In this document: piece after piece, positions 12,199 through 41,325 of the stretch
Position numbering within the stretch: the first letter of the stretch is position 1
How the letters are laid out: the number at the start of each line of letters is the position of its first letter
Origin: Variovorax boronicumulans
GTDB lineage: Bacteria; Pseudomonadota; Gammaproteobacteria; Burkholderiales; Burkholderiaceae_C
DNA length: 64,000 nucleotides
Reading direction: 5' to 3'
Assembly: GCF_030812215.1 (NCBI RefSeq)
Contig: NZ_JAUSSG010000002.1
Coordinates: forward strand, 62,001 to 126,000
Made by a program: the position numbers and the translations under genes
Notes under the pieces: generated by a model
The model's database searches: none
What the model saw: the letters and a program-made list of their open reading frames with translations, nothing else
Told to the model about the DNA's origin: nothing

Positions 12199-12218
12199 AA
12201 CGGAATTCTTTTGTTGAG

Positions 12219-13385: not shown

Positions 13386-13922
13386 ACCGGCAAACCCTCG
13401 AGTGTTCTCAACGGGCAACGCGCCCATCGTCAAGGAGCGCAGTGTCGGCAAAGAGCATCCACATTCAGTCGCCGAGTTATCAAGTTTCGATCAAGATAAG
13501 CGGACGGTTCCCGAGGGCCCCTTCCCTTCCATGTGTCGGCACAGTCTTCCTGCCGCGGTGCGTGGGAGCGCCGCGAAGGTCGACGGCGACGTCGGCGATA
13601 CAGTGCCGCACCGCCAGACACCGTGACGAGCATTGGTATCTCGCGGGCGGCGGTGCAGTTCATTGCGCACCCATTTATCGGGAAACCATCCGTGCTCGGA
13701 CCATCGGCGTGGTGCGACATGCCGCGTCTCCATCGATTCCACACAGACGCTTGATGGCCAGTTGACGTTCGACGCGCAGACTGCCTGCAATCCGTTTCGA
13801 TGCGTCCTACCGGGATGCCGACTCCTTCCAGGGCAGTCGAGACGGTGACCGCCTTCGCGGCGCGACGACGGCCCTGACGGCCCGACCGCGACGCCTTTTC
13901 AAGATTGATGGAGTCTCTTCCA
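13386..13922. other. Divergent intergenic region without a supported gene
   Basis: About 540 bases separate the divergent starts of the RND adaptor and the class III aminotransferase. Several short frames overlap here on both strands, but none shows a domain or a good ribosome binding site. The region probably holds both promoters. I could not identify a confident -35/-10 pair or operator, and no regulator gene is present. Confidence 0.45.
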
Positions 13923-15290: not shown

Positions 15291-15299
15291 CATCTGGCG

Positions 15300-17299: not shown

Positions 17300-18612
17300 T
17301 GAACGTTGAATCCAATTCCCGCCGCAACCTGCTCGACACACTCGTCGAAAAGCTGTTGCACCGAGCCCTCGAGCCACTGGTCTGGCGCGGCACCTTGACG
17401 GTGGTCCTGCCGGATGAAAAGAAGCTGACATTCGGCGATGACGGCCTGCCGCGCGCACAGATCCGCTTTACAGATCGTCGAGCACCGCTGTCGCTTCTGC
17501 TAGACCCCGATCTGCAGCTTGGCGAGTTGTTCGTGCAAGGACGGCTGCAGGTCGAACGGGGCACGATCTACGATGTGCTGGAGTTGCTGTTGCGGGACGC
17601 ACACGACCTGAAACCGCGCTGGTTCATCCGCGTGCTCGATCAATGGCGCATGTGCTTGCGTCCCCTGCTGGAGCGCAACCGGCACCGCCGGGCGCGCGCC
17701 AACGTGGCGCATCACTACGACTTGGACGACCGGCTCTACAGCCTGTTCCTGGGCGCGGATCGGCAGTACTCGTGCGCTTACTTTCAGACCGGCGGGGAAA
17801 GTCTGGAAGTCGCGCAACTCGCCAAGATGCGACATATCGCCGCCAAGCTGCTGGTGGGTCCGCAACACCGGGTCCTCGATATTGGATGCGGTTGGGGCGG
17901 CCTGACGCGCTACCTGGTCGAGGTCGGTGGCGCCCTGCACGTGACTGGCACCACGCTGTCGTGCGAGCAGTTGGCCGGAGCCAAGCGCCTGGCCGCCAAG
18001 TCACGCCGGGCAGGCGCACTGGCCTACCGGCTCGAGGACTATCGCGACACGGTCGGCACCTTTGATCGGATCGTCTCCGTGGGCATGTTCGAACACGTGG
18101 GTCGAAGCAACCATCACACATTCTTTCGCAAGTGCCACGAGTTGCTGGCGGAGGACGGCGTCATGCTCCTGCATTTCATCGGCAACTCGGATGTACCGGA
18201 CTTCAACAATCCGTGGATCGAGAAATACATCTTCCCGGGCGGCAGTCTGCCTTCGCTTTCGGAATGCATGCCGGCCATCGAACGCGCCGGTCTGGTGGTG
18301 ACCGATATCGAGGTCCTGCGGCTGCACTATGCCCAGACGCTTCGGTTCTGGCGCGAACGCTTCCTGGCTCGGCGTGACGAGGCGCGCGAACTGTATGACG
18401 AGCGTTTTTGCAGAATCTGGGAGTTCTACCTCTCGATGTCGGAGGCGGCATTCCATCATCAACAGATCGCTGTCTTCCAGATCCAGCTTGCGCGCCGTCA
18501 AGACGCGGTGCCGCTGACGCGCGACTACATCGATGCGCGCAAGGACCTGCTCTGGGCGCACGAGACCCAGTCGCTCGACTATGGCGACCTGGCCGCCGCA
18601 TCGGCGGCCTAG
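17299..18612 (+). CDS. Cyclopropane-fatty-acyl-phospholipid synthase family methyltransferase
   Basis: A 437-residue protein with full CFA-synthase architecture: an N-terminal lipid-binding domain (LTVVLPDEKKLTFGDDGLPR) and a C-terminal SAM domain (VLDIGCGWGGLTRYL). Residues important in E. coli CFA synthase appear conserved: the Cys in YSCAYF, the Glu in GMFEHVG, the His/Ile in LLHFIGNS and the Tyr in WEFYLSMSEAAF. The family signature EKYIFPGGSLPSLSE is also present. It should therefore be able to methylenate or methylate an unsaturated acyl chain, on phospholipid or on the cluster's own acyl product. Start ATG 17299 is coupled to the gene before. Its TAG stop overlaps the stop of the convergent DegT gene in a CTAG palindrome. 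Confidence 0.9.
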   Translation: MNVESNSRRNLLDTLVEKLLHRALEPLVWRGTLTVVLPDEKKLTFGDDGLPRAQIRFTDRRAPLSLLLDPDLQLGELFVQGRLQVERGTIYDVLELLLRDAHDLKPRWFIRVLDQWRMCLRPLLERNRHRRARANVAHHYDLDDRLYSLFLGADRQYSCAYFQTGGESLEVAQLAKMRHIAAKLLVGPQHRVLDIGCGWGGLTRYLVEVGGALHVTGTTLSCEQLAGAKRLAAKSRRAGALAYRLEDYRDTVGTFDRIVSVGMFEHVGRSNHHTFFRKCHELLAEDGVMLLHFIGNSDVPDFNNPWIEKYIFPGGSLPSLSECMPAIERAGLVVTDIEVLRLHYAQTLRFWRERFLARRDEARELYDERFCRIWEFYLSMSEAAFHHQQIAVFQIQLARRQDAVPLTRDYIDARKDLLWAHETQSLDYGDLAAASAA

Positions 18613-19874
18613 GCGGCCGATGCGCAGTACTCGGTCAGCGTGTCGCACAGCATTGCGAACCGTCTATCGTCAAGCCATGGACTGTTGCTGATGGACAGCA
18701 GACGAGCGGCCAGGTCGCGCGCGTGAGGCAAGGCGAGAGGCGGCAACGCGCTTGCAAGGCCCGGATAGTCAGGCAGCGCGCGCGCAAACGGCAGGCTCAG
18801 GCCGCAACCGTTCCCCCAGGCCGCGCGCAGCACGCCGTCGCGGTGCACTTGCGCAGGCAACCGAACCAGCAAGATCGGCCACACACCTTCCGCACCCGGG
18901 ACTGCATCGCTGTCCCCAAGCACTTGTACGCCCGGAATTCGAGAGAGTCGGTCGCAGCGCCAACGCGCTTGCTCCGTGCATTGCGCCAGGAACTCGGGTA
19001 GTCGTGCCAGTGCTCGAACAGCCACCGCCTGACGCCAGCGCCCCACTCGATGCAAGGGGATGGTGGGGCCATGAATGTCGCCTGCTGCGCCGAGCCAGTC
19101 GACACGACGCAAAGCCCGTCGAAGCGGTAGTCCATAGACCCAGCGCAGAGCCACCGGCCTGTAGCACAACGCATAGCCAAGCAGTTCCAGCGACCGCCGA
19201 AATTCCCAGCCAGCGCGACGCGGCACCCTGTCTGCGCTCGCCTGTGCGCAAGCGCGTCGCAGCGCAGGGTCCCGCACCACCAGGGCACCGCCTTCGAACA
19301 TGCTCAGCCCCTTGCCGACGGCCAGGCTGAAAAAACCGATATCGCCCCGGGTGCCGACGCTGCGACCTCCTGCCCGCGCACCGAGTGCCTGGGCAGCGTC
19401 CTCGATGGTCCACGCACCGACGCGGCGGGCGCAGTGCAGTGCGGTCGCCACGTCCGCGACCCGGCCGCCAAGGTGGGTCGGCAGCACGGCGAGAGTCTGT
19501 GCATTGCACAGGCGCTGCAGCGCTGCCGGATCCAGGTCAAGCGTGCCCGCCCTCACGTCGCAGACACGCAGCTTGAGACCGCAGTGCATGACCGCGAGCG
19601 CGACCAGCGGGCAGGTGTAGCCCGGCACCACCACCTCGTCGCGTTCGGGCGCAAGACGTTGCAGCGCTGTCAGCGCTACCACCAGCGCGGCGGTACCCGA
19701 GCATTCGATCTGCACGGCTTCCACATCCAGGAAGCGCGCGAGCGCTGCACCGAGATCCGCGTCGGCGTCCCCGACTGGCCAGCCCAGGTCCGCGCGGTGC
19801 AGCGGAAGTCCGGCGGTGGGCGGGACCTCCCCGAAGCGCTCAAGGTATCTGGGCATCGCAGCGCCGGCGCGCAT
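18609..19874 (-). CDS. DegT/DnrJ/EryC1/StrS-family PLP aminotransferase
   Basis: A 421-residue fold-type I enzyme of the sugar-aminotransferase family. Visible motifs are ECSGTAALVVALTAL (PLP phosphate site), VVVPGYTCPLVALAVMHCGL, IEDAAQALGARAGGRSVGT and FFSLAVGKGLSMFEGGAL with the likely Schiff-base Lys. Family members aminate keto-sugars on nucleotide carriers (ArnB, PseC), and some act on cyclitols or other ketones. Here the sugar substrate is not assured, because no nucleotide-sugar dehydratase or epimerase is nearby. Last gene of a nine-gene minus-strand operon. It overlaps the preceding small membrane gene by 35 nt with this start, or by 17 nt with the in-frame ATG at 19856; neither has a strong ribosome site. 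Confidence 0.8.
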   Translation of the reverse strand: MRAGAAMPRYLERFGEVPPTAGLPLHRADLGWPVGDADADLGAALARFLDVEAVQIECSGTAALVVALTALQRLAPERDEVVVPGYTCPLVALAVMHCGLKLRVCDVRAGTLDLDPAALQRLCNAQTLAVLPTHLGGRVADVATALHCARRVGAWTIEDAAQALGARAGGRSVGTRGDIGFFSLAVGKGLSMFEGGALVVRDPALRRACAQASADRVPRRAGWEFRRSLELLGYALCYRPVALRWVYGLPLRRALRRVDWLGAAGDIHGPTIPLHRVGRWRQAVAVRALARLPEFLAQCTEQARWRCDRLSRIPGVQVLGDSDAVPGAEGVWPILLVRLPAQVHRDGVLRAAWGNGCGLSLPFARALPDYPGLASALPPLALPHARDLAARLLSISNSPWLDDRRFAMLCDTLTEYCASAA

Positions 19875-27719: not shown

Positions 27720-29153
27720 TCAAGGCGTCATCCCGGGATCGTTCTCGACCCAGCCACCACCCAATACCTGACGGAGCTGCACATGGTTCTGCAGTTGGGC
27801 CAGTCGTATCGAAGCATGGGCGACCTCTGCCGTGCGCAGGCGTTCCTGCGCATCGAGCCAGCTTCTCAGAGGCAGCAACCCGACCCGGAAGCGGGCCTCG
27901 TAGACCCGTGCCACTTCCTCCGCCTGGCGTTGCGCCTGGCGCAACGCGCCTTCCTGCTCGGCGAGTCGGATGCGGGCGGAGAGAGCTTGGTCCACTTCGC
28001 CGAGCGCGGTGTACAGCGCTTTGCGAAACCCCATTGCGGCTTCTTCGTATCTGGTGCGGGCGATGTCGGTCTCGATTCCCAACGTGCGCGCCTGCAGAAA
28101 GGGCAGCGTCATGCCGACACCCAATGTCGCGACCGGATTGGCAAGTACGTCGAGGAGGGCTCTGCTGGAACTGCCCAGCGCACCGGTGAGTGAGATACCA
28201 GGGTAGTAGCTGGCCACCGCTGCGTCGGTGCGCGCACCCGCGGCCTGAAGCCGCCACTGGGCAGCGCGCAGGTCAGGCCTGCGCCCGAGCAGATCGGCCG
28301 GAAGGCCTGGATGTACCGGCGGCAAGGCGATCTCGGGCAGCGTCCGGGGCTCGGGCTCCGGTACGGAAGCGCCATCCAGCAGCACGCGCGCGCGCTCGCG
28401 CAGTACCGTGGCTGCCTGACGCTGGGCCGCCAGATCGGCGGCACGCTCCTCGCGCACTTGCAGCGCCTCGTGCAGCGCCAGCCGACCTTCCGCTCCCGCC
28501 TCGAAGCGGGCCTGAACCAAGGCCACGATGCGCCGGGCATCGCTTTCGCTGGCTTCGGCCATCGCCACGCGATCGTTGGCGTAGGCGAGCTGGAAGTACA
28601 GGTCGATGACGCTGGCGACCAGCACCAGCCGCACGGCCTGCCTGTCCCGCTTGCTCGCCTGCGCCTCGGAGCTGGCGGCAGCCTGCAGCGCGTCGAGACG
28701 CCCGAAGAGGTCGAGTTCCCAGCTCACTGCGATCTGCCCGTTGCTGCCTGAGCTCGTGTCCGGTTGTCCACTGCCCAGCCCTCGCGCGCTGCGGGTGTTC
28801 CATGCGCCGGACACCGTGGGTGTCAACTGGGCGCCTGCGAGCCGGGCCTCCAGCATCGCGCGGCGCAGCCGGATGCCCGCCACGGCAAGGTCTGCGTTGC
28901 GTGCGAGGGCGGTTTTCACCCAGGCGTCCAGCACTGGCAGCTCGCCCGCGCGCCACCAGGTCAACCTCCTGTTGCCAGCTCGAGCTGCCGGTGCAGCCTC
29001 GGCATGGGTATACGCAGGTGGCAGCACCGGCATCGGCTTGGGGGGCTCGGGCGTGGTGCATCCCACCCCTGCACAGGCCAGCAGAGTGGCGAACATGGCT
29101 CGGGGCAAGGACGCTCGCAGGCGAAGAAGAGAGAAAGGTATGGATCGCGTCAT
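27720..29153 (-). CDS. Outer-membrane efflux channel, NodT family (second exporter)
   Basis: A 477-residue TolC-type lipoprotein channel (signal ATLLACAGVGCTTPEPPKP with Cys in VGC). Family motifs are GQIAVSWELDLFGRLDALQ, LLGRRPDLRAAQWRLQAAGA and LGVGMTLPFLQARTLGIETD. It starts 1 nt after the MacB stop and belongs to the MacA-MacB-channel operon. It is clearly a different paralogue from the channel at 25133-26641; only the common family motifs are shared. The gene closes this operon. The next gene on the strand begins about 1.1 kb further on. Confidence 0.88.
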   Translation of the reverse strand: MTRSIPFSLLRLRASLPRAMFATLLACAGVGCTTPEPPKPMPVLPPAYTHAEAAPAARAGNRRLTWWRAGELPVLDAWVKTALARNADLAVAGIRLRRAMLEARLAGAQLTPTVSGAWNTRSARGLGSGQPDTSSGSNGQIAVSWELDLFGRLDALQAAASSEAQASKRDRQAVRLVLVASVIDLYFQLAYANDRVAMAEASESDARRIVALVQARFEAGAEGRLALHEALQVREERAADLAAQRQAATVLRERARVLLDGASVPEPEPRTLPEIALPPVHPGLPADLLGRRPDLRAAQWRLQAAGARTDAAVASYYPGISLTGALGSSSRALLDVLANPVATLGVGMTLPFLQARTLGIETDIARTRYEEAAMGFRKALYTALGEVDQALSARIRLAEQEGALRQAQRQAEEVARVYEARFRVGLLPLRSWLDAQERLRTAEVAHASIRLAQLQNHVQLRQVLGGGWVENDPGMTP

Positions 29154-29154
29154 G

Positions 29155-31116
29155 TCAATCTCGCGCGAGGGCCTGCACCGGCTCGAGCCGTGCGGCGTTC
29201 CTGGCAGGCAGGTAACCGAAAGCCACGCCGACCAGGCAGGAGCTGACCACAGCCAGCACCACCGAGAGCGCAGAAAAAGACATCGGCAGTTGCGGCATCA
29301 GCAAGGCGATGAGCGCACCCAGGCCGAAGGCCAGCAACACGCCGGCCGCGCCGCCGATCAGGCAGATCAGCACGGCCTCCATGAGGAACTGCGCAACGAT
29401 GTCGGTGCGCCGCGCGCCCACGGCCATTCGCACGCCGATTTCTCGCGTGCGCTCGGTCACCGACACCAGCATGATGTTCATCACGCCGATTCCCCCCACC
29501 ATCAGCGACAGGGTCGCCACGCCGGAGATCAGCAGTGCCAGGGTGCGACTGGTGCGCGTGGCGGCCTGCCGAACCTGGTCTGAATTCATGATGAAGAAGT
29601 CCTGGCTGCCGTGACGGTCGCGCAGCACCGAAGTGACGGCGCCTTGCGCCGCACGGCTGGAGATTTCGTCCTTGATGCGCAATGTGATGCTTTCCAGGTA
29701 TTGCCTTCCCGCGAGGCGTGTCGCCACCGTCGTGTAGGGAACGAAGAAGCCCGGCGTGCTCGACGCGAAACTGCTCTGCATCGGGCGCAGCACACCAACG
29801 ACCTGTACCGGCATCTCGCCGAGAAGCACGGTCTGCCCCAGCGGCGATGCGCTGCCGAAGAGCGCCGTGGCTGCGCGTTGATCGATCACGGCCACCTGTG
29901 CGCGCGCTTCCTGCTCGAGGGCGTCGAAGAATCGGCCCGAGGCCAATGAAAGGCCGCGCACGCGAAACAGCCCCGCCCCCACGCCATTGACCTGGGCCGA
30001 TGCCGCCGCGGAGTCGCGCAGTGCCGCCACCGACACCGATATGTTGGGCGAGGCACTGTCCACGTAGAACTGCTGCGCCAGCGCCTCGGCGTCGGCCACC
30101 GACAGGTTCTCTATCGCGCTCGCTCTCAGGTCGCCGAAGTCCCGGCCGGGAAATATCTCCAGCGTGTTGGTGCCCAGCTCTCGGATCTGGGCCATGACCT
30201 GATCCTGCGCACCGCGCCCCAGCGCGACCACGCACACCAGGGCTGCAATACCGATGACGATGCCCAGCATCGTCAGCAGCGCGCGCAGCCGGTGGGCATG
30301 CAGGGCGAAAAGCGCCATGCGCAGCGTCTGCGCCAGGCGAGCAGACATGGCTGTACCTTCGCGCCCGCTCTCGCCTTCCGGCGGCGCTGGCAACGCAGTC
30401 GCGCCCGGCACCGTCGCGGCTTCGCTGCGTCGATCGGAAACGATGCGGCCGTCGCTGATTTCGATCACGCGCGACGCACGGCGGGCCACCTGGGCATCGT
30501 GCGTGACGATGATCACCGTGTGCCCCTGCGCATTCAGTTCGGCGAGCAGACGAAGCACTTCCTCGCCGCTGGATGTGTCCAGGGCACCCGTCGGCTCGTC
30601 GGCCAATATCACGCTGCCGCCGTTCATCAGCGCACGCGCGATCGAGACGCGCTGCTGCTGTCCGCCCGAGAGCTGATTGGGCCGATGGTCCGCGCGCGCT
30701 CCCAATCCCAGACGCTCCAGCAGCAACCGCGCACGAGCCTGGCGTTGCGGCGCGCCGCAACCGGCGTAGATGGCGGGCAGTGCCACGTTGTCCAGCGCGG
30801 TCAATTCACCGAGCAGCTGATAGCGCTGGAAGACGAAGCCGAAGTGCTCGCGTCGCAACCTGGCCAGGCCATCCGCGTCCAGATCCGCAACCTCCTGGCC
30901 GGCCACGCGGTAGCTGCCCGCGGTCGGACGATCCAGCGCGCCGAGGATGTTCATGAGCGTCGATTTGCCGGAGCCCGAAGCACCCACGATGGCCACCATC
31001 TCGCCCGCGTCGATCCGCAGATCGATGCCGTCCAGCACCGTGAGGGTGCCCTCCCCTGCCACGAACTCACGGCGCAGGCCGCGCGTCTCCAGCAATGCCC
31101 GGGACGGGCCTACCAT
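29155..31116 (-). CDS. macB: MacB-type ABC transporter, fused ATPase-permease
   Basis: A 653-residue MacB homologue. The N-terminal ATPase (residues 1-~235) has Walker A GASGSGKST, Q-loop GFVFQRYQLL, signature LSGGQQQRVSIARALM and Walker B VILADEPTGALD. The permease has TM1 at LLTMLGIVIGIAALVCVVAL, then a periplasmic MacB_PCD domain (~residues 295-500). It ends with three helices that include SLMVGGIGVMNIMLVSVTER and the REIGVRMAVGA coupling loop. MacB uses ATP to drive periplasmic cargo (macrolides, lipopeptides, toxins) through an adaptor and channel. Its ATG overlaps the stop of the upstream adaptor frame, which carries a frameshift. If that adaptor is dead, this pump would need a partner from elsewhere. 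Confidence 0.9.
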   Translation of the reverse strand: MVGPSRALLETRGLRREFVAGEGTLTVLDGIDLRIDAGEMVAIVGASGSGKSTLMNILGALDRPTAGSYRVAGQEVADLDADGLARLRREHFGFVFQRYQLLGELTALDNVALPAIYAGCGAPQRQARARLLLERLGLGARADHRPNQLSGGQQQRVSIARALMNGGSVILADEPTGALDTSSGEEVLRLLAELNAQGHTVIIVTHDAQVARRASRVIEISDGRIVSDRRSEAATVPGATALPAPPEGESGREGTAMSARLAQTLRMALFALHAHRLRALLTMLGIVIGIAALVCVVALGRGAQDQVMAQIRELGTNTLEIFPGRDFGDLRASAIENLSVADAEALAQQFYVDSASPNISVSVAALRDSAAASAQVNGVGAGLFRVRGLSLASGRFFDALEQEARAQVAVIDQRAATALFGSASPLGQTVLLGEMPVQVVGVLRPMQSSFASSTPGFFVPYTTVATRLAGRQYLESITLRIKDEISSRAAQGAVTSVLRDRHGSQDFFIMNSDQVRQAATRTSRTLALLISGVATLSLMVGGIGVMNIMLVSVTERTREIGVRMAVGARRTDIVAQFLMEAVLICLIGGAAGVLLAFGLGALIALLMPQLPMSFSALSVVLAVVSSCLVGVAFGYLPARNAARLEPVQALARD

Positions 31117-32323
31117 AGCGCCGGCCCTTGAGGTACTACGGCATCGGCCGCGACCGGTTCACCGACCACTACGCGCTCCCCGACGGTCAGACCGCCGAGT
31201 ACCTGCACCTGCAGGGGTGTGCGCAGACCGGTCAGCACCTGGCGCTCGACCACGTCCCCATCCGGTTGCAGCACGCGCACCGTCCCGTGCCCGGCCTTCG
31301 CACCTGGCCGCAGCGCCACGGCGGGAACGAGCAAGGTGTCCTCGACCTTCTTCACATGCACAGAGACCTGGACCGTCATGGAGGGCCGCAGCATGCCGTG
31401 GTCGTTGGGCACATCGAACAGGGCGTTGTAGTAGACAGCCTTGGTCGCAGAGGCTGCAGCCGAGGCGCTTCCGGCCGTCACCGCCTCGTTGGTGATGGAA
31501 TCGGGAGCCGGCTCGATCAGGGCGATGGCGCCTGATAGCGTTCGGTGCGGCTGCCCGGCACGACGAAGCTCGCCGCCATGCCCGGCGCCACCAGGTTCAC
31601 GTCGGCCTCGGAGATCTCGGCACGCACGGTCATCACGTCCAGCTTGGCCAGCATGACGATGGTGGGGGTGCTCTGAAAGGCGTTGAGCGTCTGACCCTGC
31701 CTCGTGACCACCGCCACCACGACGCCGTCCATCGGCGCCACGATGCGGGTGTAGTCGAGTTGCGTGCGCGCCGTATCGACCTGCGTGCGCGCCTGCGCGA
31801 CCTGGGCCTGCAACGAGTCGATCTCGGCTCGCAGCGTATCCACCGCCGCCTGGGCCGCTTCCAAGTCGGCCTGCGCGGTCGCCTCGGCCACGACCAGCGT
31901 CTGCTGCCGGCGCAGCAGCACTCGGGCCTGGGCCATTGCAACGCGCCGCGCGTTCAACTGCGCGCGCAGCGCGTCGACCGCCGCCTCGGCACTGCGCAGC
32001 GCGATCTGCTGCGGCTGCGCATCCACCTCGGCGATCAGCTGTCCCTTGCCTACACGCTGTCCCAGGCTCACGTGCAGGCGCTCCACCCGACCCGACACCT
32101 GTGCGCCGACGGCGACCAGCTCCTTGGGACGAACTCGGCCCACCGCCTGTACTTCCTGGGCCAGTGTGCCGCGCTCGACCACCGCGGTGGCCAGATCGGA
32201 TGGCGGACCTGCATTCATTTCCACGAGCGCGAACGTGCCGGCAGTGGCAAGGGCGACAGTGCCGGCCGCGAGCGCCCATTTCCGAGCTGTCTTCAATGCA
32301 TCGCTTTCAAGGTTGGGGTTCAT
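31110..32323 (-). pseudogene. macA: MacA-type adaptor with a frameshift near 31530
   Basis: Two overlapping minus frames together make one full MacA. The first starts at ATG 32323 with an N-terminal anchor (ARKWALAAGTVALATAGTFA). It carries the lipoyl half (AVGAQVSGRVERLHVSLGQR), coiled coil and beta-barrel as far as SFVVPGSRTERYQ, then stops at 31517 after 268 residues. The family sequence resumes in another frame as GAIALIEPAPDSITNEAVT. It runs through TVQVSVHVKKVEDTLLVPAV to a stop at 31110 that overlaps the macB start. Restoring one nucleotide at about 31527-31534 (GCGCC context) joins them. Either the strain carries an inactivating 1-nt deletion or this is a sequencing error; everything else is intact. 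Confidence 0.8.
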
Positions 32324-32600
32324 GGCCCTGCGCCGGGCAGCCAGGGGCGGCCATCTGTGCGGCGACGAGGGATCCGTCCCATCGAAGGGACTGGGAGGAA
32401 TTGTTGTGAACGCGCGTCGAGAAAGAAACGGCGCACGATCCAGATCTGATCGAGAGATGCAGCGCCCGGGCGCGCGTTCAAGGCCGCTCCATGTGCGAAT
32501 TGACCGAACGTTGATGAAACCCCCAGTGCTTCTGCATCGAGCGAAGAGAACATTTCGTCACAGCCAATCCTGAAGCCCGCCCGGGCTCGCACGCCTTCGA

Positions 32601-34226
32601 ATGCACTCTCCGCTTGCAGATTCCAATCCCGGTCCGTCTTTGTCGGCAGTGGTCGACTCCGCCAAGGTCGTGCTCAGCGGCCCCGTACCGCGGCCCGATC
32701 GCGCCAGGGCGGCATCGCGGTCCGCAGGGCTGGGCGGTGCCTCGCCGCCCCGGCCCAGCGGAGCCTGGGTCGTCGCGCTGCTCGCCGTCTTTGCCGCCAT
32801 CTGGTTGCCGCAACTCGCGCAATCGAGCCTCGTGCCGCCCACGGACAACATCGAGCAGCTCACCTGGGTGCGCAGCCTTGAATTGGGCTACTACAAGCAT
32901 CCTCCGCTGCCCACGTGGGTACTTTGGCTTCCAGTGCAGTTGATGGGTTTGTCGGGGCCCGTCACCTATGTGCTGGGCGCAACCTTCGTGCTGGCGGCGA
33001 TGGGGCTGCTCTGGCGATTTCTCGCAGCCCTTCGCGGTTCCGTGTACGCAACGGTGGCGCTTCTCGCGGCCCTGTGCATCACCTACTACAACGGACGTCT
33101 CTACTACTACAACCACGAAATGGTGCTGGTCCCGTTCGCAGTGGCAAGCGCTGTTTTCACCTGGAAGGCATTTGTCTCGAGACAGCGCCGCTGGTGGCTG
33201 GGGCTCGGAGTCTGCCTCGGCGTCGGAGGGCTCGCCAAATATCACATCGTCGTGATGGCCCTGGCCGTGGCGGTGTTCTGGACGTGGCAAAGAGGCTGGC
33301 GGGATGCGGGCCATCGACGAGGCCTTGTGCTGGCCGCGGCCGTTTCCCTGGCTGTCATGGCGCCGCATCTGCACTGGCTCTGGACGCACGACCTCGGACC
33401 GATCCGCTATGCGATGGAGTCGTCACTCGGCATTGATCACCATGGGATGCGGCGGCTGGGCGTCTGCCTGCGCTGGTTGTTCGATCAGCTCCTGAACCGG
33501 GCACTGCCCGCGTGGATCCTGCTTCTGTCGGTGCTTTGGCTTGCGGGCCGCGGACGTGCGGACGGCCCCGTGCCGTCGCGTGCGCCGCTACCCGACGACG
33601 CAGCAACGAGTCGAAGGCTCCTGTTGTGCTTCGGCCTCACGCCGCTGGTCTTCACTTTTGCACTGGGCCTGGCAGCCGGCGCGGACCTGCAGTTGCATTG
33701 GGGGGCTCCGTTCCTCCTGCTTGCCGTGCCGGCCTTCATGGAACTGGGGCCGTGGAAGGAAGCCTGGCACCGGATCTCGTTGAAATCGGCACTCAAGAGC
33801 TTCTGTCTCATTCAACTGCTGTTGCTTGCCTGGGGCCAGATGATTTCTGCCACCGGAGAGTTTCGGCTGCAGCGTCATCACTGGCGCAATTTCGATGCGA
33901 AAGCCCTGGCCGATTCAGTGGCGCCGGCGGCGCGCGCTCAACTGGGAGGACCGGTCCGCGTGATTGCAGGGCCTCCCGCCGAGGCAGGCGCACTGGCGTT
34001 GCAGCTCGGTGAGCGCCCTCTTGTCCTGATCGATGGCCGCTTCGACATCAGTCCTTGGGTGAACAAGGAGTTGGTCGATGAATGCGGCGTGCTGGAACTG
34101 AGCAGAGACGCATCGCCTCCGGGCTATCGGCCGGTAGGCGACAAATTCCCCGGCTTGCATTGGCGAACGGTCGTCCCTCGCTCGCCGTCCATCTACTGCA
34201 CCTGGAGGGCGCATGCAGCAAATTGA
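32601..34226 (+). CDS. GT39 (ArnT/PMT-type) membrane glycosyltransferase
   Basis: A 541-residue polytopic GT-C enzyme. The catalytic-loop signature is PPTDNIEQLTWVRSLELGYY followed by KHPPLPTWVLW, with the acidic D-N-x-E pair in the first periplasmic loop. About ten hydrophobic helices fill residues ~57-430. A soluble periplasmic tail ends the protein (ALADSVAPAARAQLGGPVRV). ArnT-type enzymes move a sugar from an undecaprenyl-phosphate donor to an acceptor such as lipid A. The next two genes (ArnC-like GT2 and a ChbG/YdjC deacetylase) supply exactly what such a donor needs. This matches the FlmK/LgmB role in galactosamine or glucosamine modification of lipid A. The ~55-residue N-terminal extension before TM1 could mean a later true start. 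Confidence 0.82.
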   Translation: MHSPLADSNPGPSLSAVVDSAKVVLSGPVPRPDRARAASRSAGLGGASPPRPSGAWVVALLAVFAAIWLPQLAQSSLVPPTDNIEQLTWVRSLELGYYKHPPLPTWVLWLPVQLMGLSGPVTYVLGATFVLAAMGLLWRFLAALRGSVYATVALLAALCITYYNGRLYYYNHEMVLVPFAVASAVFTWKAFVSRQRRWWLGLGVCLGVGGLAKYHIVVMALAVAVFWTWQRGWRDAGHRRGLVLAAAVSLAVMAPHLHWLWTHDLGPIRYAMESSLGIDHHGMRRLGVCLRWLFDQLLNRALPAWILLLSVLWLAGRGRADGPVPSRAPLPDDAATSRRLLLCFGLTPLVFTFALGLAAGADLQLHWGAPFLLLAVPAFMELGPWKEAWHRISLKSALKSFCLIQLLLLAWGQMISATGEFRLQRHHWRNFDAKALADSVAPAARAQLGGPVRVIAGPPAEAGALALQLGERPLVLIDGRFDISPWVNKELVDECGVLELSRDASPPGYRPVGDKFPGLHWRTVVPRSPSIYCTWRAHAAN

Positions 34227-35337
34227 CTCGCAGACCCGCAAGGCCCTGCTCGACGCCCACATGCGCTTGCACCTCGATGACTTCGCGTCGACCGAGCGAC
34301 TGTTGAACGATGCACCTTTGGCGTCCGCGCAAATGAGACAACCCGCGCAACGAGGCCACGACGGCTCCATCAGTTGCGTCATTCCCTGTCGAAACGAGGC
34401 CAGGAACCTCGAGTTGCTGCTGCCGCGGCTGATCGCTGTGCTGGGCACGCTGTCGCGGGATTGGGAAGTCATCGTCGTCGACGACGGCAGTACCGACACC
34501 ACCTGCGAGTCGGCGCTGCGCTGGCAAGACAAGGGCGTGCGGCTACTGGAGCTTTCGCGCAACTTCGGCAAGGAAGCCGCGCTGAGTGCGGGCCTGGATG
34601 CGGCGCGCGGCGGCCTCGTGTTGTTGATGGACGGAGACGGCCAGCATCCGCCTGAACTGATTCCCGAGATGATCGTCCGCTGGACCCGGGGTGCGGACAT
34701 GATCTGCGCGAGGCGCTCGAATCGCGACGCCGAGGGCTGGGTCAAGCGCATCGGGACGCGGATCTTCTACCGGCTTCTCGACTGCGACCGACGCTATCGG
34801 GTCCCCGCCGATGCGGGCGACTTCCGGTTGCTCGATCGCACGGTGGTCGAAGCGCTGCGTGCCCTTCCCGAGCGCAGCCGCTTCATGAAGGGCTTGTTCG
34901 CGTGGGTCGGTTTCCGCGTGGAGCAGATCGCCTACGTGCCTCCTGCGCGACCTCACGGCAGGAGCCACTACAGCTTGCAGGCGCTGTGCAACTTGTCGCT
35001 GACCGGGATCACCATGTTCACCAGTTGGCCTCTGCGCGCGGCCAGCGTGCTTGGAGGACTGCTCGCCATTGCCGCGTTCGGCTACGGCGGCACACGGGTC
35101 CTGTCGTACATGCTCTGGGGCAATGAGGTGTCGGGCTGGACCACGATCGTCGTCGCCACGTTCCTGCTGGCGGGGGTACAGCTGATGTCGCTCGGCGTGA
35201 TCGGAGAGTATCTGGCGCGGGTCTTCGATGAAGTGAAGGGACGCCCGCTGTATCTGGTTCGTAGATCCCTGGGAGCCGGTCTGAAGGGCCGCGGTCCCGA
35301 AGGCGGTGCTGACCCGCGGGAAGCCGATGAAAAATAA
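34213..35337 (+). CDS. GT2 polyprenyl-phosphate glycosyltransferase (ArnC/FlmF2-like)
   Basis: A 374-residue family 2 enzyme with a GT-A domain: SCVIPCRNEARNLELLLPRL, the VVDDGSTDTT nucleotide site and the metal-binding MDGDGQHPPEL. Two C-terminal membrane helices follow (ASVLGGLLAIAAFGYGG and ATFLLAGVQLMSLGVIGEYL). This is the DPM1/ArnC/GtrB architecture. The enzyme puts a sugar from a nucleotide donor onto undecaprenyl phosphate on the cytoplasmic side. The ~45-residue N-terminal extension is unusual. The start overlaps the GT39 gene by 14 nt, and the end overlaps the deacetylase start by 11 nt. By analogy to Francisella FlmF2 the sugar would be N-acetylated, to be deacetylated by the next gene product. 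Confidence 0.85.
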   Translation: MQQIDSQTRKALLDAHMRLHLDDFASTERLLNDAPLASAQMRQPAQRGHDGSISCVIPCRNEARNLELLLPRLIAVLGTLSRDWEVIVVDDGSTDTTCESALRWQDKGVRLLELSRNFGKEAALSAGLDAARGGLVLLMDGDGQHPPELIPEMIVRWTRGADMICARRSNRDAEGWVKRIGTRIFYRLLDCDRRYRVPADAGDFRLLDRTVVEALRALPERSRFMKGLFAWVGFRVEQIAYVPPARPHGRSHYSLQALCNLSLTGITMFTSWPLRAASVLGGLLAIAAFGYGGTRVLSYMLWGNEVSGWTTIVVATFLLAGVQLMSLGVIGEYLARVFDEVKGRPLYLVRRSLGAGLKGRGPEGGADPREADEK

Positions 35338-36241
35338 GCAACCCGCGTGCTTCGACCTGGAGGCTTGCCGCGCCTCGCCGGACGATGGCCTGTCCGCGCG
35401 CTCAGCGCGCGCCATCGCTGTGTGCGTAGACGATTTCGGCCTGAATACCAGCATCAATGCGGCCGCGCTGCATTTGGCGGAGATGCGGCGCGTGAGTGCG
35501 TTGAGCGCAATGACCCAGGCACCGGAGTGGGAAGACGGCGCAGCGCGTGCGCGATGCATGGACAGTCGGCGGATCGATGTCGGGCTCCACTTCAACCTCA
35601 CGCAGTCATTCGGCGGAGCCCCTGCTTTGGGCTCTGTGCAGACCTTGGTCGCGGCGACGCATCTTCGCCTGCTGCCAAAGCGCCTGGTGCGTGAAGCCCT
35701 GCTGCGCCAACTCGACGCGTTCGAGGAACAGATGTTCAGTGTCCCTGCCCATGTGGACAGCCACGAACATGTGCATCACCTGCCCGTGATACGGGACGTC
35801 GTGCTGGACGTGCTGCTCAGGCGATATGGCAGCGCGCTGCCGTGGGTGCGCGTGAGCGCCGCGCCGGCGTCCTCGCTGGCGGGGTCTTTTCGAAGTGCCG
35901 ATGAACGCAAGGCATGGCTCATCGATCATCTGGTAGGGGCCGAGCCTTTCCGCCGTCGCGCTCGCTCGCTGGGCTTCGTTGCCAATCGCCGCCTCCTGGG
36001 CGTCTACGGTTTCGATGCCACCGAAAGCGGGTACGGCTTCCTTTTGCGGAAATGGCTGAGGCAGGCTCGCAGCGGAGATCTGCTGATGTGCCACCCAGCA
36101 AGTTCAGCGGTGGGCGACGTCATCAGCCGCGGACGCCGTGTCGAGTTCGCGGTATGGTCCGACCCTCACCTCCCCCACCTTCTGCGAGAGCTGGGGGTTC
36201 GCATCGCACCTATGTCGACTCTGCGGGCGGCGACGGCGTGA
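35327..36241 (+). CDS. ChbG/YdjC-family carbohydrate deacetylase (NaxD/LgmC-like)
   Basis: A 304-residue YdjC/ChbG deacetylase. Metal and catalytic motifs are visible: VCVDDFGLN (Asp pair), VGLHFNLTQ and HVDSHEHVHHLPVIRD (His ligands). In Francisella, NaxD of this family deacetylates undecaprenyl-phosphate-N-acetylgalactosamine so the amino sugar can be placed on lipid A. The same GT2/deacetylase/GT39 trio is present here. ATG 35327 has GGGAAG 4 nt upstream. The 25-residue N-terminal extension before the catalytic start is not typical. The paralogue HpnK, for hopanoids, is the alternative, but no hopanoid gene is nearby. Confidence 0.85.
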   Translation: MKNKQPACFDLEACRASPDDGLSARSARAIAVCVDDFGLNTSINAAALHLAEMRRVSALSAMTQAPEWEDGAARARCMDSRRIDVGLHFNLTQSFGGAPALGSVQTLVAATHLRLLPKRLVREALLRQLDAFEEQMFSVPAHVDSHEHVHHLPVIRDVVLDVLLRRYGSALPWVRVSAAPASSLAGSFRSADERKAWLIDHLVGAEPFRRRARSLGFVANRRLLGVYGFDATESGYGFLLRKWLRQARSGDLLMCHPASSAVGDVISRGRRVEFAVWSDPHLPHLLRELGVRIAPMSTLRAATA

Positions 36242-36358: not shown

Positions 36359-36562
36359 TCACGGGCCGAACCAATAGAACAACCACGATGCCACGGCGCC
36401 GAGCGCGGCCACCAGGAGCAACTTGTCGGCCCTCGCACAGACCCATGCTACGAGGGTTGAGCCGCGCGTCGACCTTGTTGTGAGCCTGACCAGATCTCCT
36501 GGCTCGACGGGCAGTTGCCGGTGCACGGCGCCAGAAGATACTTGCTCGAACTGAAATTCCAT
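36359..36562 (-). CDS. Possible small membrane protein, unknown
   Basis: A 67-residue frame with a soluble N-terminal part (FEQVSSGAVHRQLPVEPGDL) and one C-terminal hydrophobic helix (LLLVAALGAVASWLFYWFG) ending in GP. ATG 36562 has AAGAG about 8 nt upstream. No family recognised. It lies alone between the deacetylase and the response regulator, on the opposite strand. A helix at the very end and a polar head would fit a tail-anchored protein, but coding status is only moderately supported. Confidence 0.45.
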   Translation of the reverse strand: MEFQFEQVSSGAVHRQLPVEPGDLVRLTTRSTRGSTLVAWVCARADKLLLVAALGAVASWLFYWFGP

Positions 36563-37021
36563 GGCTTGCTCTTGATGACGATGCAAGCCGATGCTCTCGT
36601 AAGCGGATGAAGTTGCGATTGAGTGCTCATGGGGTTTCGCTCAAGAAGCTTTTCCCTCCGTGATTTCGGATGTGACTCGCTTCGGCCCAGCCTCTGCACC
36701 GCGGGCGACCCGCCGATTGCGGGCCTTGATCAGATCTTGATAAATGGTGGTTCGACGGTTGACAGAGGGGTCTGACAATTGCGCGAGACCCTGTTCGTCC
36801 CGCGCGGTGCCCGTGTTGCCGTCGCACACACGCGCATTTCGGACCCAGGAGCCCGCCAAATGCGCCGCTCCACACTTTCAAGAGTGCATCAGATAATGCC
36901 GAACTTGTTCGCGAAAGCGTGATGCCGCGCGTGCTCCCAGCGAAAGGTTTTGCCATTGCGCATGTGCAACGCCATCGCAAAAACAATCTCATGCCCGCTT
37001 CAAAAAAAAAACACGATCCTC
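36563..37021. other. Region upstream of the two-component system
   Basis: About 460 bases. A minus-strand frame 36641-36859 contains a plausible helical stretch (DPSVNRRTTIYQDLIKARNR) but lacks a good start. A run of ten A residues lies just before the response regulator gene. I see no clear operator or terminator. The promoter of the two-component genes should be here. Confidence 0.4.
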
Positions 37022-37717
37022 ATGGCTAACGAACGCATCCTCATTGTCGAAGACGATTCCCAGATCGCCGAGGTGCTGTCTGCCTATCTGCAGCGCGATG
37101 GCTATCTCACATCGATCTGCCGTGATGGCGGCGAGGCCATGCAGATGTTCCGGCAATGGCAGCCGGACCTGGTGCTCCTCGACTACATGCTGCCGCAGGT
37201 CAATGGGAACGAGATTCTGGGAGCCATTCGCAGGGCCGGCGATGTCCCCGTCATCATGGTCACGGCTGTCGACGGCGAAGTGGAGAAACTGGGCGCGCTT
37301 CGCTACGGCGCGGACGACTATGTCGTGAAGCCCTTCAACCCCAAGGAGGTGGTCGCGCGCGTGCAGGTCATCCTCAAGCGCGTCCGCAACGCCCCTCAAC
37401 AGAGCAACCAGTCTCACCTCGCGTGGGGGCCGCTGGAGCTTGATCTCGACGCCGTAATGGCACGCACCGCGGACAAGTCCGAGCCTCTCGACCTGACCAT
37501 CACCGAGTTCAAGCTTCTGGCGACCTTGATGCGCAGTCCGCGCAAGGCCTTCAGCCGCCTTGAATTGCTGGAGGCGTGCCTGCCCGAGAGCGATGCGCTC
37601 GAGCGGGTGGTCGACACGCATGTCCACAACCTGCGACGGAAGCTGGAAGAGCAAGGCGTCAACGGAATTCCAACGGCCGTGCGGGGCGTTGGCTATCGTC
37701 TCGGCGATTCCAGATGA
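37022..37717 (+). CDS. OmpR/PhoB-family response regulator
   Basis: A 231-residue regulator. The receiver domain (1-~120) has the acidic pocket VEDD, the phospho-acceptor Asp in LVLLDYMLPQVNG, Thr in IMVTA and Lys in VVKPFNPKE. The C-terminal winged helix has LTITEFKLLATLMRSPRKAF and the recognition helix VVDTHVHNLRRKLEE with the wing AVRGVGYRL. Overall it resembles BaeR. It is coupled to its kinase by an ATGA overlap. Its position directly after the lipid A-type sugar genes suggests control of envelope modification, as PmrAB does for arn genes; this is inference. Confidence 0.92.
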   Translation: MANERILIVEDDSQIAEVLSAYLQRDGYLTSICRDGGEAMQMFRQWQPDLVLLDYMLPQVNGNEILGAIRRAGDVPVIMVTAVDGEVEKLGALRYGADDYVVKPFNPKEVVARVQVILKRVRNAPQQSNQSHLAWGPLELDLDAVMARTADKSEPLDLTITEFKLLATLMRSPRKAFSRLELLEACLPESDALERVVDTHVHNLRRKLEEQGVNGIPTAVRGVGYRLGDSR

Positions 37718-38907
37718 AGCCATCGCGCCGGTCGCTGTGGGCGTGGCTCACGTGGCGGATGATCGCGCTGGCGATTGCCGCCACGGCGGGCGTGCAGGCG
37801 GGCATGTGGGTCCGCTACAGCTACTGGGAATCGAAAATCGATGCCCAACTGCCGGCCGGCATCGTCGAAGAACTCAGGCGGCTCGAGAGCGCTCCCAAGA
37901 GCGAGGAAACCTCGAAGCGCTTGAGCGAGATCTACACCCAATACGGGGACCGCTTCGTGTTCCCGTCGGATTCGGATGACCTGCTTATCCAGACGCTGCT
38001 GAGCCTTTCCATCATTCCCTTCGTGGCGGTGTTCGGACTGCTCATGGCGCGCCGCATCGTCGAGCCCGTCTCGGATGTCGCGACCGCGGCGGAATCGGTG
38101 TCCATGGGGCGCTTTTCCGCCCGCGCGCCGGTGCTCGATTCGGCTCCGGCCGAACTTCAGCGCCTGGCCAACCACTTCAACGCAATGGCCGAGCGCCTGG
38201 AGGCCTACGATCGCGAATTGCAGGACTCCAGCGCCGCGATCGCCCACGAGCTTCGAACCCCGCTCACTGCCGCAATGGGGCGATTGCAGGGCATCGTCGA
38301 CGAGGTTTTCCCGCTCGATGAAAAACAGATCCGGACCGTGCTGGATCAACTGGGACAGATACACCGCATCATTGGCGACTTGCAGGTTCTGTCGTTGGCT
38401 CAAGGTGGCCGCTTGCAGCTGGAAACGACGACGTTCGACCTGCACGGCTTCGTCGATGAGCGCGTCTCATGGGCTCTTCCTTCCCTGCAGGAACGAGGCA
38501 TGACGGCGATCAACCATGTGAGCGCAAAAGAGACAGTGCGCGCCGACAGGGGCAGACTGGGCCAAGTTCTTTCGGCGTTGATCGACAACGCAGTGCGCTA
38601 TGCGAGTGACGGTGGCTTGGTGGAGATCGACTGCTGCGCAGATGCATCCACCCTCGAACTGATCGTGCGCGATCGAGGCAAGAGCGCTTCGGTGGAAGAC
38701 GTGTCGCGCTTCTTCGAGCGCTTCTGGCGCAGCGAACAGTCGCGCTCCCGGTACGCGGGGGGGACCGGCCTGGGCCTGTCCGTCGTGCAGGCAATCTGCC
38801 AGGCACATGGCGGCGAGGCAAAAGCCGCTGCGCGCACTGGAGGCGGGCTGGAGATTCGGATCTGTCTGCCCCGCAATCCAGGCTTGCGTAGATCGATCGA
38901 CGAGTAA
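37714..38907 (+). CDS. Membrane sensor histidine kinase (BaeS-like)
   Basis: A 397-residue kinase. TM1 (WRMIALAIAATAGVQAGMWV) and TM2 (LLSLSIIPFVAVFGLLMARR) flank a short periplasmic sensor of ~70 residues that is rich in Glu/Lys/Ser. A HAMP domain follows (VEPVSDVATAAESVSMGRFS). The H-box is AAIAHELRTPLTAAMGRLQ with the phospho-His. The ATPase has an N-box (LSALIDNAVRYA) and a G2 box (GGTGLGLSVVQAICQAHGG). The G1 Asp lies in IVRDRGKSAS, which lacks the usual second Gly. The sensor is too small for a known ligand fold. Start ATG 37714 overlaps the regulator stop. Confidence 0.9.
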   Translation: MKPSRRSLWAWLTWRMIALAIAATAGVQAGMWVRYSYWESKIDAQLPAGIVEELRRLESAPKSEETSKRLSEIYTQYGDRFVFPSDSDDLLIQTLLSLSIIPFVAVFGLLMARRIVEPVSDVATAAESVSMGRFSARAPVLDSAPAELQRLANHFNAMAERLEAYDRELQDSSAAIAHELRTPLTAAMGRLQGIVDEVFPLDEKQIRTVLDQLGQIHRIIGDLQVLSLAQGGRLQLETTTFDLHGFVDERVSWALPSLQERGMTAINHVSAKETVRADRGRLGQVLSALIDNAVRYASDGGLVEIDCCADASTLELIVRDRGKSASVEDVSRFFERFWRSEQSRSRYAGGTGLGLSVVQAICQAHGGEAKAAARTGGGLEIRICLPRNPGLRRSIDE

Positions 38908-39157
38908 GCGCTCTTTCCGGGGAGGAAGGAAGGTCTGGTTCGCTTGCTCGGTGAGCCACAACGCACTGCATGGCTTTCGAAAAGGGCGCCGCTTGACCGA
39001 TCCTTGATGCTGTACCCACCGATCTTCAATGAAGCATCGGCAACATGACGGCATGAATCATTTCCAGGGCCTGGGGAACCGCACGCCGCTGCCGCTCCCG
39101 GAAGCGAAGGCCGAACTCTCCTGCAACACCTCAAAGACTTCAATGCAAGGATCTTTC

Positions 39158-39484
39158 ATGAAGAACCCGCAACGCAAAAGACTATGTTTATCCGCAATGA
39201 CTGTACTCATGCTGCTGGCTGCGGGGTCCGCGACCGCCGGCGTGAGTTGGTCCATCGGCATCAGTTCCCCGAATGTGGTCGTGGCGCCTCGACCGCCGGC
39301 TGTGGTCTACGAGGCCGCGCCGGCCTACGTGATCCCGGCACCGGTTTATCCGGTCGCGCCACGAGTCGTCGTCGCACCGCCGGTGGTCTACCAACCGCCG
39401 TCTGTTGCCCTGCGAATCGATCATGAGCACGACCCTTACCCGTACTACCACCACAGACACGACGACGACTGCGATGACGACTGA
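39158..39484 (+). CDS. Small exported His/Asp-rich protein
   Basis: A 108-residue protein with a clear Sec signal (KRLCLSAMTVLMLLAAGSAT, cleavage likely at ATA-GVS). The mature part is low-complexity: repeated Val/Pro/Ala/Tyr segments (PRPPAVVYEAAPAYVIPAPV) ending in a His/Asp/Tyr-rich tail (YYHHRHDDDCDDD). The tail could bind divalent metal. ATG 39158 has AAGGA 8 nt upstream. Similar small proteins of unknown role are common in Burkholderiales. It follows the two-component system by 250 nt and precedes an ABC exporter on the same strand. A stress-regulated periplasmic metal chaperone or envelope protein is possible. Confidence 0.7.
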   Translation: MKNPQRKRLCLSAMTVLMLLAAGSATAGVSWSIGISSPNVVVAPRPPAVVYEAAPAYVIPAPVYPVAPRVVVAPPVVYQPPSVALRIDHEHDPYPYYHHRHDDDCDDD

Positions 39485-39627: not shown

Positions 39628-41325
39628 ATGAACGCTTTGTCTCCGGGCCTTTCCCCTTTTGCCACCGACATGTGGCGTCTCTTGAAACCCTTCGCCGGTG
39701 TCGTTGCGATCGCGACGCTCATCGGCAGCGTGGGCGGCTTGGCCACGGCCGCGCTGCTGGAGCAGATCAATTCGGCCTTGCACGGTACAGCGGTCCTGTC
39801 CACTTCCGCGATAGCCGGGCTCGCCGTCCTGGCCGTGTTCGCCGTCGGGGGACACACGGTGGCAGGCATCCTCAACAGCGTCACCGGCCAGCGTGTGGTC
39901 GCCGCCCTTCGCAAGGACGTCTCCCTGCGGATCCTAGGCGCACCAATCGCCGCCGTCGAGCGCATGAAGAGCTATCGGCTGCAGGCGATCCTCAACGAGG
40001 ATATCGACACCATCAGCGATTTCACGGCGGAGTTCGCCGGCCACGCCTCGGCCTTCGCGGTCACCGCGGGCTGCGCGATCTACCTGTTCAGACTCTCGCC
40101 CGTTCTTTTCCTCGTCAGCGCGCTCGCGCTGGTTGTCGGTATCGGGATCAATTTCGCCGCGGCAACGGCCTGGAGTCGTGACTTCGAGAAGGCCCGAACT
40201 GGCGAGGACGAATTGCAGAAGCACTACCGCAGCGTCGTGGAAGGTGCCAAGGAACTCCGGCTCAACCGGAAGCGCCGTGCCCAGGTGCACGGCGTCCGCC
40301 TGTCGGCTGCCGCCGATCTCGTCGCGCGGCTCAAGGCTCGGGCGCTCGGCTTGTTCTGGATCGCCGAAGGTACGAATTCGGCGCTCTTCTTCCTGGTCGT
40401 CGTGTGGATCCTGGTGGCGCGTCCGTCGTTGGGAATCGACGCCCAGGTCGTCAGCGGCTTCATCATCGTGCTGCTCTTCATCAAGGGCCCCATCGAGGAG
40501 CTGGCCGCGCTGCTGCCTTTCTTGAGCCAGGCCCAGGTGGCCCTCCGCCGGATCGCGCACCTGTCGGCGGAATTCAGGAAGGAGCCGCACGCCGTTGGCT
40601 CCGCCCAGCCTGCATTTCTCGCGAGCCGCATCGAGTTGCGGCAGGCTCGCTACCGTTTCGACGCTGCGCAGGAGGGCACGCAGCCCTTCGAAGTGGGTCC
40701 GATCGACCTCAGGCTGCGACGCGGCGAGACGCTGTTCATCGTCGGCGGCAACGGGAGCGGGAAGACGACGCTCATCAAGCTGCTCCTTGGCCTTTATCAA
40801 CCCAGCGAAGGGCAGCTTCTGCTCGACGGCGCGCCCGTGGACGACCGCGGCCACGAAGCCTACCGCGGGCTCTTCTCCGCCATCTTCTCTGACTACCATC
40901 TGTTCGATGAGCTGGTCGCGCAGGATGCCGGGCACACTCGGGCCGCCAAAGAACTGATGGACCGGCTGGGTGTCGCGGACAAGGTCCAGCTTGTCGACGG
41001 CATGTTTTCCACGACGGACGTTTCGACGGGCCAGCGCAAGCGCCTCGCGCTCGTCCACGCCTGGCTGGAAGACCGCCCGGTGGTCATGTTCGACGAATGG
41101 GCCGCGGACCAGGACCCCGAGTTCCGCAGCGTCTTCTATCGTGAGCTGTTGCCGGAACTCAAGCGCGAGGGCAAGACCCTGATCGTGGTCTCGCATGACG
41201 ACCGCTACTTCGACGTCGCGGACCGCGTGATTCGAATGAGCGCGGGTCGGATCGTCGAGGAGTTCATTCCACCTGGAAAGCCGAAGTCATCCAGGTCATG
41301 CGAGGCAGATTTCAGACAAGCCTGA
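39628..41325 (+). CDS. Cyclic-peptide-export-type ABC transporter (PvdE/SyrD family)
   Basis: A 565-residue half-size ABC exporter with a six-helix membrane domain (residues 1-~320) and an ATPase. The ATPase has Walker A VGGNGSGKTTLIKLLLG, the atypical signature VSTGQRKRLALVHAWLEDRP and Walker B VVMFDEWAADQDPEFR. The STGQRKR signature and DEWAADQDP are hallmarks of the PvdE/SyrD group. These move siderophore or lipopeptide precursors across the inner membrane. No NRPS or siderophore gene is in the window, so this is an orphan exporter; a role for the product of the neighbouring clusters cannot be excluded. I chose ATG 39628, since the 44 residues before it are Cys/Pro/Arg-rich and not family-like. 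Confidence 0.85.
   Translation: MNALSPGLSPFATDMWRLLKPFAGVVAIATLIGSVGGLATAALLEQINSALHGTAVLSTSAIAGLAVLAVFAVGGHTVAGILNSVTGQRVVAALRKDVSLRILGAPIAAVERMKSYRLQAILNEDIDTISDFTAEFAGHASAFAVTAGCAIYLFRLSPVLFLVSALALVVGIGINFAAATAWSRDFEKARTGEDELQKHYRSVVEGAKELRLNRKRRAQVHGVRLSAAADLVARLKARALGLFWIAEGTNSALFFLVVVWILVARPSLGIDAQVVSGFIIVLLFIKGPIEELAALLPFLSQAQVALRRIAHLSAEFRKEPHAVGSAQPAFLASRIELRQARYRFDAAQEGTQPFEVGPIDLRLRRGETLFIVGGNGSGKTTLIKLLLGLYQPSEGQLLLDGAPVDDRGHEAYRGLFSAIFSDYHLFDELVAQDAGHTRAAKELMDRLGVADKVQLVDGMFSTTDVSTGQRKRLALVHAWLEDRPVVMFDEWAADQDPEFRSVFYRELLPELKREGKTLIVVSHDDRYFDVADRVIRMSAGRIVEEFIPPGKPKSSRSCEADFRQA

Follow-up and report, generated by a model that had tools for sequence, protein, structure and literature searches.

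What would an operon do that joins the glycosyltransferase and deacetylase of lipid A hexosamine pathways to a terminal transferase of another kind? This question is raised by three genes in a 64,000-nucleotide stretch of Variovorax boronicumulans DNA (assembly GCF_030812215.1, contig NZ_JAUSSG010000002.1, positions 62,001 to 126,000; G000:C2:62001-126000 in our numbering of the 6.75-Mb genome G000), hereafter the window. The trio encodes a GT-C transferase, a polyprenyl-phosphate GT2 glycosyltransferase and a YdjC deacetylase. We consider it somewhat better than an even bet, at a probability of roughly 0.55, that the operon transfers lipid-linked hexosamine to an acceptor in the envelope, under AdeRS-like control and together with pumps, as a defence against cationic membrane-active agents. 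The basis is formed by protein families, a phylogenetic clade, conserved residues, gene linkage and conserved regulatory boxes. The transferase kind of the window is called type A here and the ArnT type is called type B; loci in the order GT2, ArnT-like transferase, YdjC are called orthodox.

A NaxD-type front end

The initial annotation described the three genes as overlapping in one operon, and the frames bear this out: all lie on the forward strand, with overlaps of 14 and 32 bp (Table 1), and match PMT_2 (PF13231, 5.3e-20), Glycos_transf_2 (PF00535, 5.9e-30) and YdjC (PF04794, 8.2e-42), respectively. The GT2 shows full-length homology to GtrB and ArnC, aligning over residues 52-351 with the GtrB-type protein sll0501 and over residues 52-353 with ArnC. 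A quick tree, in which support comes from the Shimodaira-Hasegawa-like approximate likelihood ratio (SH-aLRT) only and long branches carry a flag, puts it into a group of 25 rows (support 99) with the GT2s of 16 orthodox Variovorax loci, locus L030 and three other Burkholderiales loci. Pairing of GT2 with YdjC also occurs in the Acinetobacter baumannii NaxD locus and in many Burkholderiales loci.

The deacetylase belongs with NaxD. A 59-row tree unites it with A. baumannii NaxD and with the type A and orthodox deacetylases read in a 49-row clade (100/100), and places two HpnK proteins, Escherichia coli ChbG and seven further rows outside; in this tree the chosen outgroup is not set apart by a single branch, and some of the rows are long-branched. 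Closer grouping with HpnK or with chitooligosaccharide enzymes, which the initial annotation had named as the outcome that would count against its proposal, is not what the tree gives, because the deacetylase lies in the NaxD clade and HpnK and ChbG lie outside it. An alignment of 13 sequences including HpnK and ChbG has 13 invariant columns, among them D42, D43, H95, H153, H155, H157 and H263, and by this measure the deacetylase keeps the active-site type residues of YdjC enzymes.

A transferase unlike ArnT

The transferase is of a different kind. Against hidden Markov models (HMMs) built here, it scores 531 bits for type A and 25 bits for type B; the corresponding scores are 24 and 476 bits for E. 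coli ArnT and 54 and 471 bits for the transferase of the A. baumannii NaxD locus. At the family level, the window protein is not a member of the ArnT/LgmB type; a remote relationship to ArnT types does emerge from hhalign, across 208 columns in the first half (probability 96.5). By contrast, ArnT (5EZM) is matched at 3.1e-45 by the transferase from the orthodox locus in genome G009. That the trio might be a plain second copy of an orthodox locus is excluded by the different kind of transferase, as judged from the HMMs and the 5EZM match. Residues D82, E85 and the KHPP motif (K99, H100, P101, P102) are invariant in nine of nine transferase relatives, and these conserved motifs suggest that the type A transferase is an active enzyme. 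An AlphaFold model of the protein made from four sequences was of poor quality, with a mean predicted local distance difference test (pLDDT) score of 39.

The type A profile finds matches at ≤1e-25 in 49 of 398 genomes of the phylum. The window transferase itself is matched at ≤1e-10 in 11 of 200 genomes of the order, the best match outside the window genome having 35% identity. At least four switches of transferase type are seen on the deacetylase tree (a count made with no shuffled-label control).

A small membrane protein and the absence of GtrA

A gene for a 67-aa protein accompanies the trio in five of five type A loci; it runs against the trio in four of these and shares its strand in Variovorax gossypii. 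The protein has no Pfam match. Among 61 genomes of the genus it is matched at E <1e-11 in exactly the three that carry type A, and weakly (0.002-0.0097) in three others. Over the last 30 codons in four loci, synonymous changes make up 37 of 75 changed codons in frame vs 12 of 75 and 14 of 67 in shifted frames, the pairs compared not being independent.

Of 25 non-Variovorax loci, 24 have a GtrA gene next to GT2 and YdjC; of the 23 Variovorax loci read, none does. This tally was made with a profile built from matched segments on loci that are not a random sample, excludes L060-L065 (HpnK-like deacetylases), L035 (without GT2) and the remnant L011, and includes four positive loci of the 24 that score only 38-68 bits. 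The window genome encodes one GtrA-domain protein, on contig C18. A literature search pairing naxD with GtrA returned nothing relevant. On a Comamonas odontotermitis plasmid (L088 4539-6816), GT2, GtrA and a NaxD-clade deacetylase occur with no GT-C gene annotated beside them.

Distribution of the two locus types

YdjC matches were found in 25 of 61 Variovorax genomes. The window type is present in three (G000, G009 and G051), at 86-100% identity, and the remaining YdjC matches lie at 35-40%. Twenty YdjC places were fetched. L012 and L013 are further type A loci, and of the other 18, 15 have the order GT2, ArnT-like transferase, YdjC; we take these orthodox loci to be of the lgm kind known from Bordetella. 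In L021 and L030, a type A family transferase is divergent from GT2-YdjC, and the last of the 18 is the remnant L011. A type A locus also lies on a 1.24-Mb plasmid record (megaplasmid) of Variovorax sp. PDNC026. Both locus kinds occur together in V. gossypii, G009 and G051.

In the window genome the orthodox site is empty, its flanks being 13 bp apart (L090 8126-8140, G000:C9) vs 5.47 kb in G009. The sole other YdjC match of this genome (L011 ~7900-9057, G000:C1, ~618 kb) adjoins a GT2 frame missing the greater part of the catalytic core, and no transferase was found beside it. An explanation of L011 as a decayed orthodox locus was rejected, as the tree pairs its YdjC with L030, a divergent type A arrangement.

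The surroundings of the trio are conserved as well. The order NodT-MacB-MacA, trio, response regulator and histidine kinase, small secreted-type protein, ATP-binding cassette (ABC) exporter is collinear in G051 and G009, and all of it except the ABC exporter is matched in PDNC026. In V. gossypii the order is changed, but the trio, MacAB-NodT, the two-component pair (76 and 74%) and the ABC exporter (70%) lie within ~17.5 kb. Also in V. gossypii, a 300-aa protein with no Pfam match (L005 1798-2700, minus strand) is encoded divergently from the trio. In the window, third-position GC is mostly 0.65-0.84 before ~44600 and mostly >0.8 after it, which resembles the edge of an acquired region. Searches of the window with Rfam (gathering threshold) and for tRNAs gave no matches.

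Table 1. Features of the window around the trio, with positions counted from its first nucleotide.
Feature	Position	Strand	Evidence
Type A GT-C transferase (PMT_2), unlike ArnT	32601..34226	+	PF13231, type A/B HMMs
Polyprenyl-phosphate GT2, GtrB/ArnC-like	34213..35337	+	PDB 5ekp 6.9e-80, ArnC 9hwj 1.3e-41
NaxD-type YdjC deacetylase	35306..36241	+	PF04794, clade with A. baumannii NaxD, invariant residues
67-aa protein, C-terminal membrane segment	36359..36562 (gene 36362-36562)	-	in type A loci
OmpR-type response regulator, nearest AdeR	37022..37717	+	AdeR model 232 bits
Histidine kinase, nearest AdeS	37714..38907	+	AdeS model 216 bits
Small protein, signal-peptide-like start (start inferred), no Pfam match	39158..39484	+	
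Cyclic-peptide export type ABC transporter (start inferred)	39628..41325	+	TIGR01194 540.6 bits, cut-off 286.2
macA, frameshifted in window sequence	31110..32323	-	
macB	29155..31116	-	family models
NodT-type outer membrane channel	27720..29153	-	TIGR01845 228 bits, cut-off 210
Resistance-nodulation-division (RND) pump operon	9055-13451	-	
Direct-repeat box before trio (and before divergent macA)	32499..32515	+	
Direct-repeat box between 67-aa gene and response regulator	36725..36741	+	
Direct-repeat box before small secreted-type gene and ABC exporter	38992..39008	+	
Direct-repeat box before RND pump operon	13479..13495	-	
Direct-repeat box before aminotransferase operon (from 13905)	13750..13766	+	

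A direct repeat shared by the trio, the regulator and the pumps

The initial annotation likened the two-component system after the trio to PmrAB in position. A regulator-kinase pair does follow, across a 780-bp gap that holds the 67-aa gene and a conserved direct repeat, but the likeness goes no further: the regulator is nearest to AdeR, scores 116 bits against PmrA (cut-off 330), and the PmrA-type box HTTAAD-N5-HTTAAD has 0 matches in the window. PmrAB identity was therefore rejected on both family score and box.

Alignment of the intergenic DNA of four type A loci brought out a different element, the direct repeat TTGAT-N6-TTGAT, with an 11-bp period. Its distance to the GT-C start is 85 bp in four strains and 86 bp in V. 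gossypii, accounting for five of five type A loci. The window holds five boxes at ≤1 mismatch vs 1.3 expected (one of 100 shuffles reached five) and two exact boxes vs 0.05 expected. All five are intergenic by our gene list, where intergenic DNA makes up 19.7% of the window, and TTGAT ranks first among 20 permuted units by intergenic matches (five, the next having two). G051, G009 and PDNC026 retain three of the boxes, and the regulator/ABC gap of V. gossypii carries a two-mismatch form; conservation in V. gossypii is the most independent support for the box. A degenerate form has nine matches genome-wide, five of them inside the window. Two of the other four lie inside likely genes, one lies in a gap after two-component-like genes, and the fourth lies ~10 bp after the second YdjC gene of the genome (L011). 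The box was not found in the three loci scanned of the 16 orthodox ones (L014, L015, L093). A scan for consensus promoters and terminators was at chance level, and a repeat finder returned nothing in the two intergenic regions.

Through this common conserved box, a regulatory link between the trio and the adjoining two-component system is supported. The occurrence of the box before the trio, the regulator, the ABC exporter and the RND pump likely marks a predicted envelope-defence regulon. The box also precedes a set of genes at 13905-19874 encoding a class III aminotransferase, a FemAB-like acetyltransferase, a weak arginase match, a CMAS methyltransferase and a DegT-type aminotransferase.

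Proposed function and alternative explanations

In the pathway that we propose, the GT2 would load N-acetylhexosamine onto undecaprenyl phosphate, and the NaxD-type YdjC enzyme would take off the acetyl group. The lipid-linked sugar would then be flipped by a protein from outside the cluster, and the GT-C enzyme would pass the positively charged hexosamine to an acceptor, most probably a lipid A phosphate. The AdeRS-like system would turn the operon on via the TTGAT-N6-TTGAT repeat, and the same box would co-activate the peptide-type ABC exporter, the RND pump and perhaps MacAB-NodT, and the whole set would be an accessory regulon that defends the envelope against cationic membrane-active agents. 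The sugar, its acceptor, the flipping step, binding of the regulator to the box and the phenotype are the parts of this proposal that we infer. Hexosamine on a lipid A phosphate is the likely product because of what is described for the lgm, flm and naxD systems.

Several observations weigh against this proposal. A PDB search with the window transferase gave no relevant match, marking it as not ArnT-like, and for 17 of 31 type A family proteins in the tree there is no YdjC in the fetched stretch, so that a tie to hexosamine does not hold for the entire family. The donor and acceptor of the type A transferase may differ from those proposed, and no flippase was found in the cluster with the GtrA profile. 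macA is split over two frames in the window and is a single frame in L012, L013, L086 and L005; either the efflux gene is broken or the sequence is in error. The unusual transferase leaves room for another acceptor: the same lipid-linked hexosamine could go to another envelope glycan (lipopolysaccharide core or O-chain, capsule or surface protein) or to another position on lipid A. This is consistent with the separate branch from which the transferase comes, with the repeated changes of GT-C type on the deacetylase tree, uncontrolled as that count is, and with the presence of both locus kinds in G009, G051 and V. gossypii. The linkage to defence-like pumps and a two-component system, however, fits a change in lipid A charge, and the window genome is without the orthodox locus, which type A may merely replace there. 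We regard another acceptor as rather unlikely; the corollary that type A complements an orthodox lgm-like locus and does not duplicate it is no more probable. Similarly doubtful is the broader picture in which hexosamine decoration has been remade in Variovorax, with a non-ArnT GT-C enzyme, a new acceptor site, the 67-aa protein, no GtrA, and control by the box within an accessory regulon that includes pumps. By far the least probable alternative is that the deacetylase acts in hopanoid synthesis (HpnK) or on chitooligosaccharides (ChbG) and that its neighbours are incidental. Its NCBIfam matches of 50 bits (HpnK) and 48 bits (ChbG-type) are weak and far below the cut-offs of 232.6 and 227, and a GT2 adjoins it in all of the Variovorax loci read, five of type A and sixteen orthodox. 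Together with the tree, the low scores rule out these functions as far as sequences can tell.

The proposed regulation meets difficulties of its own. The regulator and kinase find their best models in AdeR and AdeS but fall below the family cut-offs (340 and 500 bits, respectively), and the AdeR 10-bp direct repeat has 0 matches in the window at ≤3 mismatches. In the other strains, the flanks read showed neither the RND nor the aminotransferase operon. Other spacings of TTGAT give 0-6 matches (five with a gap of 5, three of them intergenic; six with a gap of 7, none intergenic). A reversed-pattern control has eight genome-wide matches vs nine for the degenerate form, so any enrichment of the box is local. 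Furthermore, the counts are partly circular, since two of the counted sites served to define the motif and all five to define its degenerate form. The repeat might instead be the site of a regulator other than the adjoining AdeRS-like one, or be conserved by chance in close strains. Selection of the motif after alignment, the close kinship of four of the strains, the difference between the AdeR repeat and the box, and the restriction of the exact class in V. gossypii to the site before the trio all lend this explanation some weight. It is set against the constant 85-86 bp spacing in five loci, the first rank of TTGAT among permuted units, and the three of five window boxes that were not used to draw the motif; all of the boxes precede operons. 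We consider it possible, although the less favoured account of the repeat.

The findings suggest that lipid-linked hexosamine pathways keep their GT2-deacetylase front end but exchange the type of terminal transferase time and again, and in a soil genus they tie such an operon to efflux pumps via one predicted regulatory box. Strains with the orthodox locus only, with both kinds or with type A only make the choice of acceptor and the regulation open to genetic testing. Moreover, the Variovorax loci without GtrA pose a concrete question, namely which protein flips the lipid-linked sugar. No work on Variovorax lipid A was found in the literature searched (titles and abstract starts).

Comparison with known systems

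AdeR-type regulators such as DzrR govern RND pumps on exposure to membrane-active agents, according to a published report (PMC10052836), and control of this type fits the neighbour set of the window. AdeR and AdeS are the best NCBIfam models for the window pair and the window RND operon carries the box; the differences are the sub-cut-off scores and the AdeR and DzrR repeats, which as printed differ from TTGAT-N6-TTGAT.

The initial annotation compared the trio with the Francisella FlmK, FlmF2 and NaxD set and with the Bordetella lgm genes. The GT2 and the NaxD-type deacetylase uphold this likeness as a front end, and the transferase departs from it where lgm has an ArnT ortholog. In published accounts of the lgm (Bordetella), flm (Francisella) and naxD (A. 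baumannii) systems (PMC11895810, PMC4688374, PMC10927774, PMC11401268), lgm is described as placing glucosamine on lipid A phosphates, deletion of the locus as abolishing the +161 Da glucosamine species, and LgmB as an ortholog of ArnT. As far as those descriptions of lgmA-D go, the Bordetella system is unlike the window in having this ortholog in place of a non-ArnT-like transferase. The A. baumannii NaxD locus, which is regulated by PmrA and serves galactosamine addition to lipid A, resembles the window in its NaxD-clade deacetylase beside GT2 and GT-C genes and differs in its ArnT-type transferase and its GtrA gene. The A. baumannii PmrA box, published as TTTAAG-N5-TTTAAG, was not found in the window. 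The A. baumannii locus itself (L087 884-9799) adjoins genes for TolC, HlyD and two ABC-2 permeases, a further case of an exporter next to hexosamine genes. In Francisella, where FlmF2, FlmK and NaxD add galactosamine to lipid A, the same three roles recur as in the window, by the descriptions of that system alone.

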